In this document: positions 30,020 through 36,835 of the stretch, piece by piece | How the letters are laid out: the number at the start of each line of letters is the position of its first letter | How positions within the stretch are numbered: position 1 is the stretch's first letter | DNA from: an uncultured Chloroflexus sp. | Lineage (GTDB): Bacteria > Chloroflexota > Chloroflexia > Chloroflexales > Chloroflexaceae | NCBI RefSeq assembly: GCF_937951745.1 | Contig: NZ_CALFBQ010000084.1 | Location: 1-53,363, forward strand | Length of the DNA: 53,363 nt | Direction of reading: 5' to 3' | Translations under genes and position numbers: made by a program | The notes under the pieces: generated by a model | Databases searched by the model: none | What the model saw: the letters and a program-made list of their open reading frames with translations, nothing else | What the model was told of the DNA's origin: nothing

Positions 30020-31585
30020 ATGCTGACCCCTTTTCAAAACGAACCGTTTGGCAATTTTGACAGCGGCGACCGGCGCGCGGCGATGCAGCGGGCGATCCGG
30101 CACGTCGCTGGACAACAGGGCGCGACATATCCGCTGGTGATCGGCGGCGAACACATCGTGACCGAGCGCAAGCTTGCTTCGATCAACCCGGCTGAGCCGA
30201 AGAAGGTGGTCGGCTACGCCAGCAGCGCCTCGCAAGAGCAGGCCCATCAGGCAGTACTCGCGGCTGACGCCGCCTTCCGCACTTGGTCGCGCACACCGGT
30301 GAGCGCGCGGGCGCAGGTCTTGTTACGCGCAGCGGCGATTATGCGCCGACGGAAAGAGGAACTGGCGGCGTGGATGATGTACGAGGTGAGCAAGAATTGG
30401 GTCGAAGCCGATGCTGATGTAGCCGAGGCGATCGATTTTTGCGAGTGGTACGCGCGGCAGGCGTTGATACTCCAAGGTGAACGACAACCGCTCGTGCCCT
30501 ACCCCGGCGAATTTAACGAGTTGCGCTATATTCCGCTGGGGCCGGGGTTAGCGATTCCGCCGTGGAATTTCCCCCTCGCGATTGCAACAACGCTGACGGT
30601 GGCGCCGATTGTGGTTGGGAATACGGTGGTGCTCAAGCCGTCGCCGCGTGCGCCGGTAATGGCGAACTTGCTGGTGCAGATTTTGGAAGAGGCTGGCTTG
30701 CCGCCGGGAGTCGTCAATCTCGTCACCGGCGAAGATGCGGTGATCGGTGATTTTCTGGTCGACCACCCGCTAGTGCGCTTCATCGGCTTCACCGGCTCAA
30801 AGAATGTCGGCCTGCGCATCCAGCAGCGCGCCGCCATACGCCAACCCGGCCAACATTGGCTTAAGCGTCCGATCCTTGAGATGGGCGGGAAAGATGCCAT
30901 TATCGTCGATGAGACAGCCGATCTTGAGGCGGCGGCAACCGGGATTGTTGTGAGCGCCTTTGGGTTCCAAGGCCAAAAATGCAGCGCCTGTTCGCGGGCA
31001 ATTGTGATTGATCAGGTCTACGATCAGGTGTTGCAGCGGGTGATTGAGAAAGCCAAAGCGTTACGGCTAGGCAATCCGACCAAGCCAGAGACAGATATGG
31101 GTGCGGTGATCGATCAGCGCGCCTTCGATTCGATCAGCCAGTATATCGCGATTGGACAAGAAGAGGGGCGGTTGGTGGCCGGCGGTGAGGTGATCGACCA
31201 CGAATTGGTGAAAGACGGTGGTTTCTTTATCAATCCTACCGTGTTTGCCGATGTGCCTCCCCACGCTCGTATCGCGCAAGAAGAGATTTTTGGGCCGGTG
31301 CTGGCCTTCATCCGCGCCGCTAACTTCGACGAGGCGTTGGCCATCGCGAACGATACTGAATACGGTCTGACCGGCGGCCTCTATAGCCGCAAGCTCGAAC
31401 GGCTCGAACGGGCGCGTGAGGAGTTCCATGTCGGTAATCTCTATTTCAACCGCAAGTGTACCGGCGCGCTGGTGGGGGTGCAACCGTTCGGCGGCTTCAA
31501 TATGTCGGGCACCGACAGTAAGGCCGGCGGGAGCGATTATCTGCGGTTGTTTACCCAACCTAAGGTAATCAGTGAGCGGTTCTAG
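30020..31585 (+). CDS. rocA: 1-pyrroline-5-carboxylate dehydrogenase
   Basis: A 521-residue NAD+-dependent aldehyde dehydrogenase that oxidises glutamate semialdehyde/P5C to glutamate, the last step of proline (and arginine) catabolism. The nucleotide-binding region is RYIPLGPGLAIPPWNFPLAI (about residue 171), followed by GNTVVLKPSPRAPV and GFTGSKNVG. The catalytic Glu is in LEMGGKDAIIVD, and the nucleophile is in FGFQGQKCSACSRA (about residue 320). GVQPFGGFNMSGTDSKAGG is characteristic of the RocA/PutA group. AAGGAGAAG precedes the ATG. proA, on the opposite arm of the same pathway, is about 5 kb upstream. Confidence 0.92.
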   Translation: MLTPFQNEPFGNFDSGDRRAAMQRAIRHVAGQQGATYPLVIGGEHIVTERKLASINPAEPKKVVGYASSASQEQAHQAVLAADAAFRTWSRTPVSARAQVLLRAAAIMRRRKEELAAWMMYEVSKNWVEADADVAEAIDFCEWYARQALILQGERQPLVPYPGEFNELRYIPLGPGLAIPPWNFPLAIATTLTVAPIVVGNTVVLKPSPRAPVMANLLVQILEEAGLPPGVVNLVTGEDAVIGDFLVDHPLVRFIGFTGSKNVGLRIQQRAAIRQPGQHWLKRPILEMGGKDAIIVDETADLEAAATGIVVSAFGFQGQKCSACSRAIVIDQVYDQVLQRVIEKAKALRLGNPTKPETDMGAVIDQRAFDSISQYIAIGQEEGRLVAGGEVIDHELVKDGGFFINPTVFADVPPHARIAQEEIFGPVLAFIRAANFDEALAIANDTEYGLTGGLYSRKLERLERAREEFHVGNLYFNRKCTGALVGVQPFGGFNMSGTDSKAGGSDYLRLFTQPKVISERF

Positions 31586-31758: not shown

Positions 31759-32616
31759 ATGATCAGAATCGGTTGCGCGGTGTGGGCCTACCCCGGCTGG
31801 ATAGGCGACTTATTCCCGCCGGGAACGCGCAGCAGCGAGTTTCTCAAGCTGTATAGCCGGCAGTTGACGACCGTGGAAGGTAACACCACCTTCTACGCGA
31901 CGCCGTCGCCGGCAACCGTAGCGCGGTGGGTCGCCGAGACGCCGGCCAGCTTTCGCTTTTGCTGCAAATTGCCGCGCGAGGTGAGCCATGCCGGGCCGCT
32001 GGCCGAGAAGTTGTCGCAGGCGCACGCCTTTGTCGAACGGATGCAAGGGTTGGGGGAACGGTGCGGCCCGTTCTTTCTGCAATTGCCGCCGGGGTACGGC
32101 CCGGCTCGCCGCGCCGATCTCGAGCGGTTTGTGGCCGGTTGGCCGCGCGAAGTGGAACTGGCAATCGAGGTGCGCCACCCCGACTGGTATTTACCAGTGG
32201 CGGAAGCGCCGCTAATGGAGTTGCTGGAGCGATACCGGATCGGGCGAGTAATCATGGACGTGCGCCCGATCCGGAACCCGAACGATCCCGGCGGAGTATT
32301 ACTAAATGATGCCCGTGAGCGCAAGCCTGACGTGCCGTTACGCCCGCTGCGCAGCCGCGGGCCAACACTGGTGCGCTACATTGGCCATCCCGATCTGGCG
32401 CGCAATGCGCCCTTTTTAGATGAATGGGCAGCGCGGATCGCCGAATGGGTCGTGACCGACTCCAACATCTACCTGTTTATGCACTGCCCTGACGAAACGC
32501 AGTCGCCGCATCTGTGCCGCCAGATCGCGGCCCGGCTACGTGGGTTGGGAGCGCCAGTGACCGCAGCGGGGGATCGTTCACCTGAAGCACCAGAGCAGTT
32601 GGGGTTGTTTGGGTAA
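31759..32616 (+). CDS. DUF72 (YecE-like) TIM-barrel protein
   Basis: A 285-residue DUF72 protein. Diagnostic are the N-terminal GCAVWAYPGWIGDLFPPGTRSSEFLKLYSRQLTTVEGNTTFY (residues 5-46), FRFCCKLPREVSH, GPFFLQLPPGY and ELAIEVRHPDWY. The fold is a TIM barrel; the function is unknown in the family, although links to DNA/RNA metabolism have been proposed. The last residues are LGLFG. The gene has no obvious operon partner; a 115-base spacer separates it from the ProRS-like gene. Confidence 0.88.
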   Translation: MIRIGCAVWAYPGWIGDLFPPGTRSSEFLKLYSRQLTTVEGNTTFYATPSPATVARWVAETPASFRFCCKLPREVSHAGPLAEKLSQAHAFVERMQGLGERCGPFFLQLPPGYGPARRADLERFVAGWPREVELAIEVRHPDWYLPVAEAPLMELLERYRIGRVIMDVRPIRNPNDPGGVLLNDARERKPDVPLRPLRSRGPTLVRYIGHPDLARNAPFLDEWAARIAEWVVTDSNIYLFMHCPDETQSPHLCRQIAARLRGLGAPVTAAGDRSPEAPEQLGLFG

Positions 32617-32732
32617 GTTGACGCATTCCAAGGCGACGCAGTAATAACATCGGGACGACGTATGCGTCGACTTCCCCCGGCGAGCGCTGCGCGGGCAATA
32701 CCTGCACTGACTGAATGGATGGAGCGACACTG

Positions 32733-34307
32733 ATGCATCTTACCAGCTTGTTTGGGCGCACGTTGCGCCAAGCGCCCGCCGAAGCCACTTCAGTAGCAGA
32801 ACAATTGTTATGGCGAGCCGGCATCCTGCGCACACTGAACGCCGGCGCGCCGGCGTTGTTGCCGTTGGGCAGCGCGGCGCTGCGGCGTTTGGCAACGCAT
32901 CTGACCGCAGCAATGCACGCTGGCGGCGCGCAAGAGGTGACGCTGCCAACCACCACCGTCGAACCATGGCTAAAGACGATTATTGCGCTGGCCCGGCGTG
33001 ACATCGACTCGTACCGGCAATTGCCGCAGACGATCTGGAGTTGGCGGCGGCGGAAGCGACCAACCCGCAGCCGGTCCACCTTGCTGGATTTGCCGGTGTC
33101 GGCTACACTGAGCTGGGCGGCGCTGGCGCTTGATGCAGCGCAGACGCAGAGCTTGCTCACTGCTGCCCGCGCGCAGCTTGGCGAAGCGTTGCACCAGTGC
33201 GGGCTTGGCAACATTGCTGACGCCTTGCTTGCCACCGGCGCAACCACGCTTATCGTTGACAGCCAAGCCGCACCGCAAGCCACCCTCGATTGCCCGACAT
33301 GCGGCTGGCGTGCGCCGCTCGAACTGGCCCCATTGGCGCCACCGCCACCCTACACCGGCCCAACGCCAGCGATGAGTCTGGTCGAGACGCCCGGCACGAA
33401 TACGATCGCGGCGCTGGCCGAATATCTCGGCATCCCGACAGCTGCCACGGCCAAGGCCCTCTTCTTTTACGACCAGCGCAGGCAACGGCTGGTGTTCGCC
33501 GTAGTGCGCGGCGACCGCGAAGCGAGTTTGACCAAGCTAGCTGCGGCGATCGATGCCGGCGACCTTGTGCCGGCCAGCGCTGAGCAGATTCAAGCCTGCG
33601 GCGCGACGCCCGGTTACGCTTCGCCAGTAGGGTTGCGCGAGGTGCTGGTGGTGGCCGATCTGAGCGTTTGCAACGGCGCGCCACTGGTCGCCGGCGCGAA
33701 CCGGCCCGGCTACCATCTGCGCGACGTGGTTTACGGGCGCGACTGGCAAGCGACGATTGTCGCTGACATCGCTCAAGCCGCCGCCGGCGACGCTTGTCCA
33801 CGCTGCGGCGCGACGCGCAGCGAAGGGCGCGGCGCAGTCATCGGCGCGATCAGCGAACCGCAACCTACAGATCTACTAGTGCAAGACGCTGATGGTCAAA
33901 ACCGGTCATTGCACCTTGCTGGAATCGAACTCGACCTCGAACCGCTGCTGCACCTCGCCGTCGAGCAGCACCACGACGAACGCGGCATCGTTTGGCCAGC
34001 GGCCATCGCGCCGGTGGATGCGCATCTGGTCACGTTAGGCCGGGGTGAAGCAGTGGCAGCCGCAGGGCAAGAACTAGCCGGCGAATTGCGCGCCGCCGGG
34101 TTGGCAGTGCTGCTCGACGACCGCGACGAGCGGGCGGGGGTGAAGTTAAACGACGCCGATCTGATCGGTGCGCCGTGGCGGGTGGTGGTGAGCGAAAAAC
34201 TGCTGGCCGCCGGGCAGGTCGAAGTGCGCCGACGCACCGAGGCTCAAGCGACGGTGATCGCACGGGCAAAGGTGGTAGCGTGGTTGCAGGGCAGAGATTC
34301 TGCGTAA
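32733..34307 (+). CDS. Prolyl-tRNA-synthetase paralogue: intact editing and anticodon domains, catalytic core degraded
   Basis: A 524-residue protein with bacterial ProRS order. The N-terminal region (MHLTSLFGRTLRQAPAEA) and motif-1-like segment (LLPLGSAALRRLA, 42-54; GGAQEVTLP, 64-72) are recognisable. The TXE loop after motif 1 is absent (about 35 residues shorter), and motif 2 (usually FRDE..PR.G..R.REF.MKDAYSF) is replaced by SWRRRKRPTRSRSTLLDLP (103-121). Motif 3, normally GCYGIGVSR, is here LHLAGIELDLEPLL (393-406), without its Arg. In contrast, the inserted YbaK-like editing domain (about 210-345) keeps K241, GxxxP (294-298) and H328, and the zinc ligands CPTC (187-190) and CPRC (355-358) flank it. 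The anticodon-binding domain (418-515, GIVWPAAIAP, LLDDRDERAGVK) looks normal. GGAG precedes the ATG at 32733; ATG 32715 is an alternative. It is unlikely to charge tRNA; a trans-editing role is an inference. Confidence 0.85.
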   Translation: MHLTSLFGRTLRQAPAEATSVAEQLLWRAGILRTLNAGAPALLPLGSAALRRLATHLTAAMHAGGAQEVTLPTTTVEPWLKTIIALARRDIDSYRQLPQTIWSWRRRKRPTRSRSTLLDLPVSATLSWAALALDAAQTQSLLTAARAQLGEALHQCGLGNIADALLATGATTLIVDSQAAPQATLDCPTCGWRAPLELAPLAPPPPYTGPTPAMSLVETPGTNTIAALAEYLGIPTAATAKALFFYDQRRQRLVFAVVRGDREASLTKLAAAIDAGDLVPASAEQIQACGATPGYASPVGLREVLVVADLSVCNGAPLVAGANRPGYHLRDVVYGRDWQATIVADIAQAAAGDACPRCGATRSEGRGAVIGAISEPQPTDLLVQDADGQNRSLHLAGIELDLEPLLHLAVEQHHDERGIVWPAAIAPVDAHLVTLGRGEAVAAAGQELAGELRAAGLAVLLDDRDERAGVKLNDADLIGAPWRVVVSEKLLAAGQVEVRRRTEAQATVIARAKVVAWLQGRDSA

Positions 34308-34829: not shown

Positions 34830-36835
34830 ATGAACTCTTCAACCGCCATCCAACCGTTGCCTGAACCCGCTTCGTGGCTGGAACGGCCACGCCAGCACGG
34901 GCTGACCTTCAACCGCGCCGTGCTGCTGGCGCTGATGGCGCTCTCCGCCAGCTTGCACTTCGCCAATATCCAAGCAATTGGCGACGCCAATGCGTACTAT
35001 ACGGCGGCGGTCAAGTCGATGCTGCAATCGTGGCATAACTTCTTCTTTGTCGCTGCCGAACCGGGTAGTTCGGTGACGGTTGATAAGCCGCCGCTTGGCT
35101 TGTGGATTGAGGCTACTTTTGCGCTGGCGTTGGGTGTGAACGGGTTTGCAGTCAGCTTGCCCAACATCCTCGCCGGTATCTTTGGCATTCCGCTGCTGTA
35201 TACACTGGTCAAGCGCCACACGGGGACGCTAGCCGGTCTCGTCGCCGCCACCGTTCTTGCGATCACGCCAGTGGTGATCGGTACCGATCGCAATAACACG
35301 ATGGATGGGAGCTGGTTTTTACGCTGCTGTTGGCAACGTGGTCATTCATCACGGCCACCGAGAACGGTAAGCTGCGCTGGCTGTTGCTTGGCGGCGGGCT
35401 GATGGGATTGGGGTTTAATATCAAGATGCTGCAAGTGTTTTTACCGCTGCCTGCACTCTACGCCCTCTATTTCTTTGGCACAAGTAAACCATAGCGGCAG
35501 AAGATCTTCCAGCTTGGCGTCACGACCGTCTTGCTGCTAACGGCGTCGCTATTGTGGGCCATCATTGTCGATCTAACGCCGGCCAGCGCCCGTCCTTACG
35601 TCGGCGGCAGCCAGCGCAATAGCGTGGTCGAGTTGATGATCGGCTACAACGGGATCAACCGTCTGCTGGGGATGCAGCGCAATGCGTCGGGCGCACCACC
35701 GGCAGGCATCACCGATTCCAGTAGCTACCACCCAAACCAATCGCCGGATAATCCTCCGTATCCTCCTTTTGCCCAACCGCCGCCGGGTGTAGGCGGTGGG
35801 CCACCCTTCCCACCAGCAAGTCGCCCAAGCGATGACATATTCGCGCAAGAGATCGGCACGCCGTCAGCCATCCGCTTGTTCGTGCCGCCGTTAGCCAAAG
35901 AGCTAAGCTGGCTATTGCCCTTTGGGTTAGTCTGCTTGATCGGACTAACCATTACCGCGCACCCGTCACGGCCATTAGCTGCCGAGCATCAGGCAGTCAT
36001 ACTCTGGGGCGGCTGGCTCTTAATTGGACTGGTCTTCTTCAGCGTCGCCAACTTCTTCCACGATTACTACCTGATCATGTTAGCTGCGCCGCTAGCAGCG
36101 GTGATCGGCAGCGGGGTAGCAGTCTGGTGGCGCAAACGGGAACAGGGTTGGGTGCAATGGACACTGGCGTTAGCGGCTGCCGGCACGCTCGCCTTCCAAT
36201 GGTGGCTGGCGAGGCAATACGGACAAGATGCGTGGTGGCTGCGGCTCGCGGCCATCGGGCTGGCCAGCGGTTTGATCGCTCTGCTAATGGGGCACCGGTG
36301 GCTGCGGCAGATGGCGTTCGTGGCAGCATATGCCTTTCTGGTTGTCGCCATGCTCATCACCCCACTAGCATGGTCAGTGCTCACCGTGGCCGAGCAAAAT
36401 CCGGATGTGGCACTGCCGGGTGCGTATGTCGGATCACAGTTCGGCACAGGTCTCTTGGCACCGGCTGAGGCACCGGCCTTCCCCAACCAACACCCGCCCG
36501 ATCAGGCCGCCGATCCCAGCACATTGCTGGCCTTCTTGCAAGCCCACACCCAAGGCATTGACTATCTCGTCGCCGTGCCTAGCGCGCAAATTGGTGCGCC
36601 ACTGGTGCTGGCGACCGGCAGGCCGGTATTGTACATAGGAGGGTTTAGCGGCAGTGATCCGGTGATTGACGCCGAAGGGCTTGCGGAACTAGTCGCAGCA
36701 GGTCGGTTGCGTTATGTGCTCTTCGGCGGGCGCGCACAGAGCAATCAGATCAGTGCGTGGCTGCAAACCCGTTGCGCGCCGGTCGCAGGATTCCGCGAAG
36801 GGACGCAGGTGTTGTATGAATGTGTGAGGAAATGA
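34830..36835 (+). pseudogene. Broken GT39/ArnT-like glycosyltransferase gene
   Basis: A dolichyl-phosphate-mannose- or ArnT-type membrane glycosyltransferase gene split by two lesions. The N-terminal part (34830 on) has the catalytic-loop signature SVTVDKPPLGLW and several membrane helices. Near 35310 a one-base deletion shifts the frame; restoring it gives NNTMDGSLVFTLLLATWSF. In that second frame a TAG at 35492-35494 falls where the sense reading continues ...GTSKP-RQKIFQLGV, probably a TGG to TAG change. The same frame then stays open to 36835, with LLWAIIVDLTPASARPYVGG, a Pro/Gly-rich loop (about 35750-35830) and further helices. The family transfers sugars from a polyprenyl-phosphate donor; the protein here is not made full length unless these are sequencing errors. 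Confidence 0.85.

Follow-up and report, generated by a model that had tools for sequence, protein, structure and literature searches.

The window analysed here, a 53,363-nucleotide stretch of DNA from an uncultured Chloroflexus sp., carries a gene whose product has the domain order of a bacterial-type (type II) prolyl-tRNA synthetase (ProRS), and which was originally predicted to have lost its aminoacylation motifs while keeping its editing domain. This raises the question of whether such a protein still charges tRNA and, if it does not, what the domains that it has kept are for.

A ProRS paralogue without recognizable charging motifs

An ORF scan placed the gene in an open frame at 32715-34307, and in our alignment the start of the relatives corresponds to the ATG at 32733; the likely coding sequence therefore starts at this codon and specifies 524 residues, as originally proposed (Table 1). 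The protein matched the Pfam families tRNA_edit (5.8e-23) and HGTP_anticodon (3.6e-18), the latter in keeping with an anticodon-binding domain that had been described as normal-looking, and no Pfam match to the class II synthetase core was obtained at E<=1. The type II ProRS profiles TIGR00409 and NF006625 scored 178.4 versus 306.7 bits and 271 versus 558 bits, respectively, both below cut-off.

Table 1. Features of the ProRS paralogue and of its upstream neighbours in the window.
Feature	Coordinates	Strand	Basis
P5C (L-glutamate gamma-semialdehyde) dehydrogenase, upstream	30020..31585	+	syntenic in 8/8 Chloroflexus genomes
DUF72 gene between P5C dehydrogenase and paralogue	31759..32616	+	same strand, syntenic in 8/8 Chloroflexus genomes
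CDS, predicted non-charging type II ProRS paralogue, 524 aa (longest ORF from 32715)	32733..34307	+	ORF, conserved start, family matches
N-terminal part that still aligns with ProRS, including the motif 1 region	32733..32951	+	alignment
Junction where ~30 residues including the TXE (PTHEE) loop are gone	32976..32981	+	alignment
Former motif 2, now SWRRRKRPTRSRSTLLDLPV-type sequence	33039..33107	+	alignment
First Cys pair CPTC (C187)	33291..33302	+	alignment / sequence reading
INS / tRNA_edit domain	33387..33722	+	PF04073
Editing lysine K241	33453..33455	+	alignment
GxxxP loop GYASP (294-298)	33612..33626	+	alignment
Editing-domain histidine H328	33714..33716	+	alignment
Second Cys pair CPRC (C355)	33795..33806	+	alignment / sequence reading
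Former motif 3, now AGIELDLEP, catalytic Arg gone	33918..33944	+	alignment
Anticodon-binding domain (HGTP_anticodon), with DDRDERAGVK.NDADLIG	34011..34289	+	PF03129, alignment

In ProRS, proline and ATP are bound by the TXE loop together with motifs 2 and 3. Alignment of the paralogue with intact type II ProRSs from the same order showed a gap of about 30 residues where relatives have the TXE segment (LLFAPTHEEAVAEL); motif 2 (YRDELR..GGL.R.REF in intact enzymes) was replaced by RRRKRPTRSRSTLLDLP, which lacks the R-x-E, and motif 3 (MGSYGIG.ER) by LAGIELDLEP, with proline at the position of the arginine. The paralogue therefore carries neither the TXE, the motif 2 R-x-E nor the motif 3 arginine of a functional type II enzyme; the alignment bears out the deletion and replacements noted originally, and recovered neither motif. 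The editing residues of the insertion (INS) domain, also part of the original prediction, were found in all eight Chloroflexus sequences (K241, G294-P298 and H328), and in a 39-sequence alignment H328 was invariant and K241 almost invariant. The GxxxP loop and the histidine are presumably important for editing. K241 was assigned by alignment to K279 of Escherichia coli ProRS, the alanine mutant of which (K279A) is described as defective in editing in the excerpted text of PMC3973320. The paralogue thus has the lysine, GxxxP and histidine that characterize the INS superfamily, and both cysteine pairs, CPTC and CPRC, were located, these being common to its nearer type II relatives.

An AlphaFold2 model built with the 39 sequences had a mean pLDDT of 90 and a pTM of 0.83. 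Its best structural matches were bacterial ProRSs (8w8j_B, Z 35.1, 513 residues, 6.6 A; 2j3l_B, Z 35.0, 516 residues, 4.9 A), type II ProRS structures were also the best matches of the INS domain, and 1h4q_A, a type I ProRS, matched over the core and anticodon-binding domain (Z 29.1, 323 residues, 2.8 A). Judging from the model, the dead core therefore appears to have largely kept its catalytic fold, with the caveat that the alignment includes intact ProRSs and may bias the model towards that fold. Sequence and fold, including the INS and anticodon-binding domains, point to descent from type II ProRS, and as read from its sequence the paralogue is a type II ProRS without charging motifs that keeps the editing and anticodon parts.

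The 9.4 kb preceding the paralogue contain a GatD-like gene (24682) as well as proA (glutamate-5-semialdehyde dehydrogenase, 23378) and the P5C dehydrogenase gene (30020). Elsewhere in the window, a mannosyltransferase-like gene is split into two ORFs, a PMT_2 part at 34830-35402 and a YkcB_C part at 35531-36835, possibly by a frameshift.

The paralogue is under purifying selection

Conservation in related genomes was evaluated in eight Chloroflexus genomes, all of which share the same motif losses and an open frame; since the losses are common to all eight, assembly error or chance can be discounted. The copies of C. islandicus and of a Chloroflexus sp. MAG are 87% and 82% identical to the paralogue, respectively. 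Pairwise dN/dS had a median of 0.126 (range 0.099-0.192; 28 pairs), and by part the median was 0.087 for the editing domain, 0.127 for the anticodon-binding domain and 0.190 for the TXE/motif 2 remnant, after exclusion, for each part, of between 1 and 8 pairs with saturated synonymous sites. Third codon positions were the most variable in the three pairs counted. The paralogue is thus under purifying selection, which is strongest in the INS domain. The extent of motif loss relative to its relatives might have suggested a decaying pseudogene or an assembly artefact, including a frameshift; the open frames in 8/8 genomes, dN/dS values within 0.099-0.192 in 28/28 pairs and the excess of third-position variation led us to reject this reading, the probability of which we regard as close to negligible.

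A type I ProRS is encoded in the same genome

A search for a second, complete proS identified a type I (archaeal-type) ProRS elsewhere in the genome (TIGR00408, 553 bits), in which TSE, motif 2-like and motif 3-like sequences could be recognized by eye. The possibility that the paralogue is the only proS was therefore rejected. No editing insertion was seen in the type I ProRS, and PF04073 had no match there. A pattern search found three tRNA-Pro genes, with anticodons GGG, CGG and TGG, and all three carry G35/G36 in the anticodon, C1:G72 and A73.

Two further editing-domain proteins are encoded in the genome: a YbaK homologue (C49) and a standalone protein (locus L001, G000:C9) nearest to 3op6, a known structure without a stated function. 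The KNLF motif, which we take to be a mark of ProXp-ala, was present in none of the 29 usable standalone editing-domain loci of the order (30 read, a part of the standalone hits). The ProXp-ala structure 5vxb (PMC11295145, as excerpted) was absent from the matches of both proteins at E<=0.01. The protein nearest to 3op6 belongs to a second conserved standalone family in the order (YTA...PPFGNLY; L001, L247, L248, L259 and L260). Among the 60 genomes of the order with at least 90% completeness, 14 encode no tRNA_edit protein, and all 14 have a type I ProRS; editing by such proteins is therefore dispensable in some relatives.

Charging-site decay appears to have recurred in Chloroflexota

We surveyed 82 genomes of the order with profile matches at E<=1e-30 and at the family cut-off. 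Type I ProRS was found in 73 (72 over cut-off) and type II ProRS in 44 (28 over cut-off). Beyond Chloroflexus, charging residues were lost in G008, in G020, the congener of which (G030) is intact, and in genus g23 (G042, G048, G054, G056, G060 with two copies, and G072). A type I ProRS accompanies the decayed copy in 15 of these 16 decayed-copy genomes of the order, the exception being G072 (82% complete), which had no type I match beyond its decayed copy. When 80 loci were compared, three were those of Chloroflexus and three others (L086, L110 and L115) were fragments; in one quick alignment, the other full-length copies kept the charging residues checked, except L064, in which motif 2 reads RDQ, and L072, which is missing the TXE stretch.

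In a sample of 201 genomes from the phylum, type II ProRS was present in 117 (excluding seven hits confined to the anticodon stretch of frames of 403-496 aa), type I in 121, both in 39 and neither in 2. This sample added decayed copies in G115, G160 and G256 and a partly decayed one in G218, all four with a type I ProRS. Type I ProRS was present in 9/9 genomes with decayed copies (five lineages), compared with 30 of the 108 other type II genomes (Fisher p 2.6e-5, the genomes being non-independent and the motifs having been inspected in 31 of the 108).

The lysine, the glycine and proline of GxxxP and the histidine of the editing domain were kept in all 20 decayed copies aligned. The charging site is less uniform, and the class "decayed" is accordingly a loose one. 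Under a strict rule, by which the TXE, the motif 2 Arg-x-Glu and the motif 3 Arg must all be lost, four lineages qualify (Chloroflexus, G008, G115 and G256), for two of which, Chloroflexus and G008, a single shared event is conceivable. G020, G160 and the six g23 copies that extend to motif 3 retain its Arg, G042 keeps a TXE-like TDE and G060a keeps an R-x-E (R-S-E) in motif 2; some of these copies may therefore retain activity.

A first tree required at least four changes within the order. A wider tree of 68 rows, computed from 321 columns between the first Cys pair and the C-terminus with motif 3 omitted, required seven changes, all of which are forced by the well-supported branches when the partly decayed G011, G026, G033, G066, G067, G218 and G146 are scored as intact. 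Dropped from this tree were the fragments G048, G069, G071, G044b and the second G044 ORF, the second type II copy G053b, the long-branch rows L061, L067, L081 and L083, and G041, G047, G050 and G055, for which near rows were kept. A single clade of all decayed copies in the order was rejected by the AU test (p 0.0039). Among pairs picked after inspection of the tree, Chloroflexus with g23 (p 0.0098) and G008 with g23 (p 0.012) were also rejected, while Chloroflexus with G008 (p 0.093) and Chloroflexus with G020 (p 0.056) were left standing. Charging-site decay thus appears to have arisen several separate times in Chloroflexota.

Other ProRS arrangements were encountered in these searches. Six g20 genomes without a type I ProRS have two type II matches each; in G053b (L199), one of the second copies, the charging residues are kept and Asn and Tyr occupy the positions of the editing Lys and His, which would amount to the reverse division of labour. 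The editing domains of all six second copies scored weakly (40.8-46.2 bits), and those of the g20 genomes other than G053 lay outside the alignments. Type I and type II matches are same-strand neighbours separated by 118 to 874 bp in G037, G102, G146, G185 and G193, possibly as a charging-plus-editing pair; in G037 and G102 the type II copy retains its charging motifs, and in G146 it has AYQE for THEE. Finally, a quick alignment of ProRSs from Peribacteria (L090) and Peregrinibacteria (L102) MAGs reads STTMTLLF at the position of the editing lysine, so editing may be lost or changed in these proteins.

A predicted trans-editing role for the paralogue

In E. coli ProRS, editing of Ala-tRNAPro by the INS domain depends on recognition of G35/G36 by the anticodon-binding domain and is independent of the acceptor stem, whereas ProXp-ala does the opposite and reads the acceptor stem rather than the anticodon; the INS domain of most bacterial ProRSs is specific for alanine (PMC3973320, in the excerpts available). 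As the two parts that act together in that system are the two parts kept in the paralogue, we infer trans-editing of Ala-tRNAPro. We put at roughly three in four the probability that the paralogue is an enzyme that hydrolyses Ala-tRNAPro formed by the type I ProRS, having arisen by decay of its charging site. The original prediction had left the choice between a trans-editing factor that selects tRNAPro and a regulator; both the purifying selection and the intact editing residues in 20/20 copies, together with the E. coli data, favour the former.

Under this model, the bacterial-type ProRS would have been made redundant for charging by the complete type I ProRS, which has no editing domain, and its aminoacylation site would have decayed while selection kept the INS editing and anticodon-binding domains. 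The type I ProRS would occasionally produce Ala-tRNAPro, which the paralogue would bind through its anticodon-binding domain by reading G35/G36. The CCA end would then enter the INS pocket formed by K241, the GYASP loop and H328, where the alanyl ester would be hydrolysed, and the tRNA would be let go, ready to be charged again. What is left of the catalytic core may serve as a scaffold and probably also as a dimer interface.

The main rival reading is a regulatory role. By analogy with HisZ-like synthetase paralogues, the paralogue could sense uncharged or charged tRNAPro through its anticodon-binding domain and control proline metabolism, with the editing domain left as a remnant or a ligand pocket. 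The P5C dehydrogenase gene, the DUF72 gene and the paralogue keep their order and strand in 8/8 Chloroflexus genomes, so a part in regulation has some claim, and proA also lies in the window (23378). The coexistence of the paralogue with a type I ProRS does not separate editing from regulation, since a charging ProRS is needed for viability under any reading. Against regulation, the parts that bind proline and ATP (TXE and motifs 2 and 3) are the ones lost, and constraint is strongest in the INS domain. In addition, 12 neighbours from the window used as queries were unmatched in nine neighbourhoods from other genera (two of them on short contigs), a set that includes four decayed copies (G008, G020, G042 and G054) and leaves G115, G160 and G256 outside it. 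We therefore consider a regulator unlikely, though worth keeping in mind.

The paralogue could also edit a different error in trans, such as Cys- or Ser-tRNAPro or another mischarged tRNA. A YbaK homologue, of the family that clears Cys-tRNAPro, is already encoded in the genome, and the best matches of the INS domain are to type II ProRS structures, most bacterial members being Ala-specific (PMC3973320, as excerpted); the relaxed and varied amino acid specificities of the INS superfamily, described in the accessible part of PMC11295145, leave this alternative a slim chance. That the paralogue still charges tRNA with a rebuilt active site is very improbable: the catalytic-domain fold is mostly retained in the model, but the TXE, the motif 2 R-x-E and the motif 3 Arg are absent and a complete type I ProRS is present.

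Trans-editing of Ala-tRNAPro accordingly stays our preferred reading, and we think it reasonably probable that Chloroflexota repeatedly turned a redundant bacterial ProRS into a tRNAPro-selective trans-editor consisting of an INS and an anticodon-binding domain on a dead core, given seven lineages with decayed copies, four of which have lost all three motifs. If so, a synthetase that has been replaced could, as a general evolutionary route, persist by proofreading for its successor, and tRNAPro trans-editing would have an anticodon-reading mode in addition to ProXp-ala, ProXp-x and YbaK. How anticodon recognition reaches the distant editing site of ProRS is left open in the excerpt of PMC3973320; a natural protein that has both parts and no synthetic site would allow editing to be examined in isolation from charging, and could reveal whether binding in trans suffices. 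The recurrence offers replicate natural experiments on what a replaced synthetase keeps, and genes annotated as proline--tRNA ligase in these bacteria may not encode ligases.

Comparison with known systems

No report of an editing-only ProRS was found among titles and abstract openings in the open-licence literature, nor did we find papers there on ProRS editing in Chloroflexus or ProRS duplication in Chloroflexi. Trans-editing factors as such are already known; what would be new is the unusual and repeated origin of this one. Relative to type II ProRS, the paralogue has the same domain order, fold (2j3l_B, Z 35.0), INS editing residues and anticodon-binding domain, and differs in the deleted TXE loop, the replaced motifs 2 and 3 and the full type I ProRS alongside. 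ProRSx of Streptomyces is likewise a duplicated bacterial ProRS with an altered role, but it remains a charging enzyme, attaching proline to a tRNA that has an Ala anticodon (PMC9437257, in the excerpt available).

ProXp-ala and YbaK share a homologous editing domain with the paralogue and act in trans on errors on tRNAPro. They are described as single-domain proteins, the exceptions being fused or extended forms of ProXp-ala in some eukaryotes and plants (PMC11295145, in part), and the YbaK-like proteins of Leishmania are described without a ProRS body in the excerpt of PMC3532385. ProXp-ala reads the acceptor stem and YbaK has no tRNA specificity according to the excerpt of PMC3973320, whereas the paralogue keeps an anticodon-binding domain. 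The original statement that no anticodon domain accompanies stand-alone editing domains holds for the INS superfamily as reviewed in the part of PMC11295145 available, and fails for archaeal ThrRS-ed, which has one. The paralogue is not a single-domain protein.

Archaeal ThrRS-ed works beside a separate charging ThrRS. The paralogue resembles it in having kept editing and anticodon-binding domains and lost the charging motifs, and in the presence of a complete charging synthetase without an editing domain in the same genome. The two differ in that ThrRS-ed belongs to the threonine system and has a DTD-like editing domain (PMC11295145, as excerpted), while the paralogue has a ProRS-type domain (PF04073), which places it outside the ThrRS-ed family, descends from bacterial ProRS and, in the model, keeps a remodelled catalytic core as a fold. 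The Ser-tRNA(Thr) hydrolase profile NF011500 matched the paralogue over residues 405-511 only (14.6 versus 362 bits). In logic, its closest analogue would nonetheless be the ThrRS-ed of archaea, of which the paralogue may be the bacterial proline counterpart.
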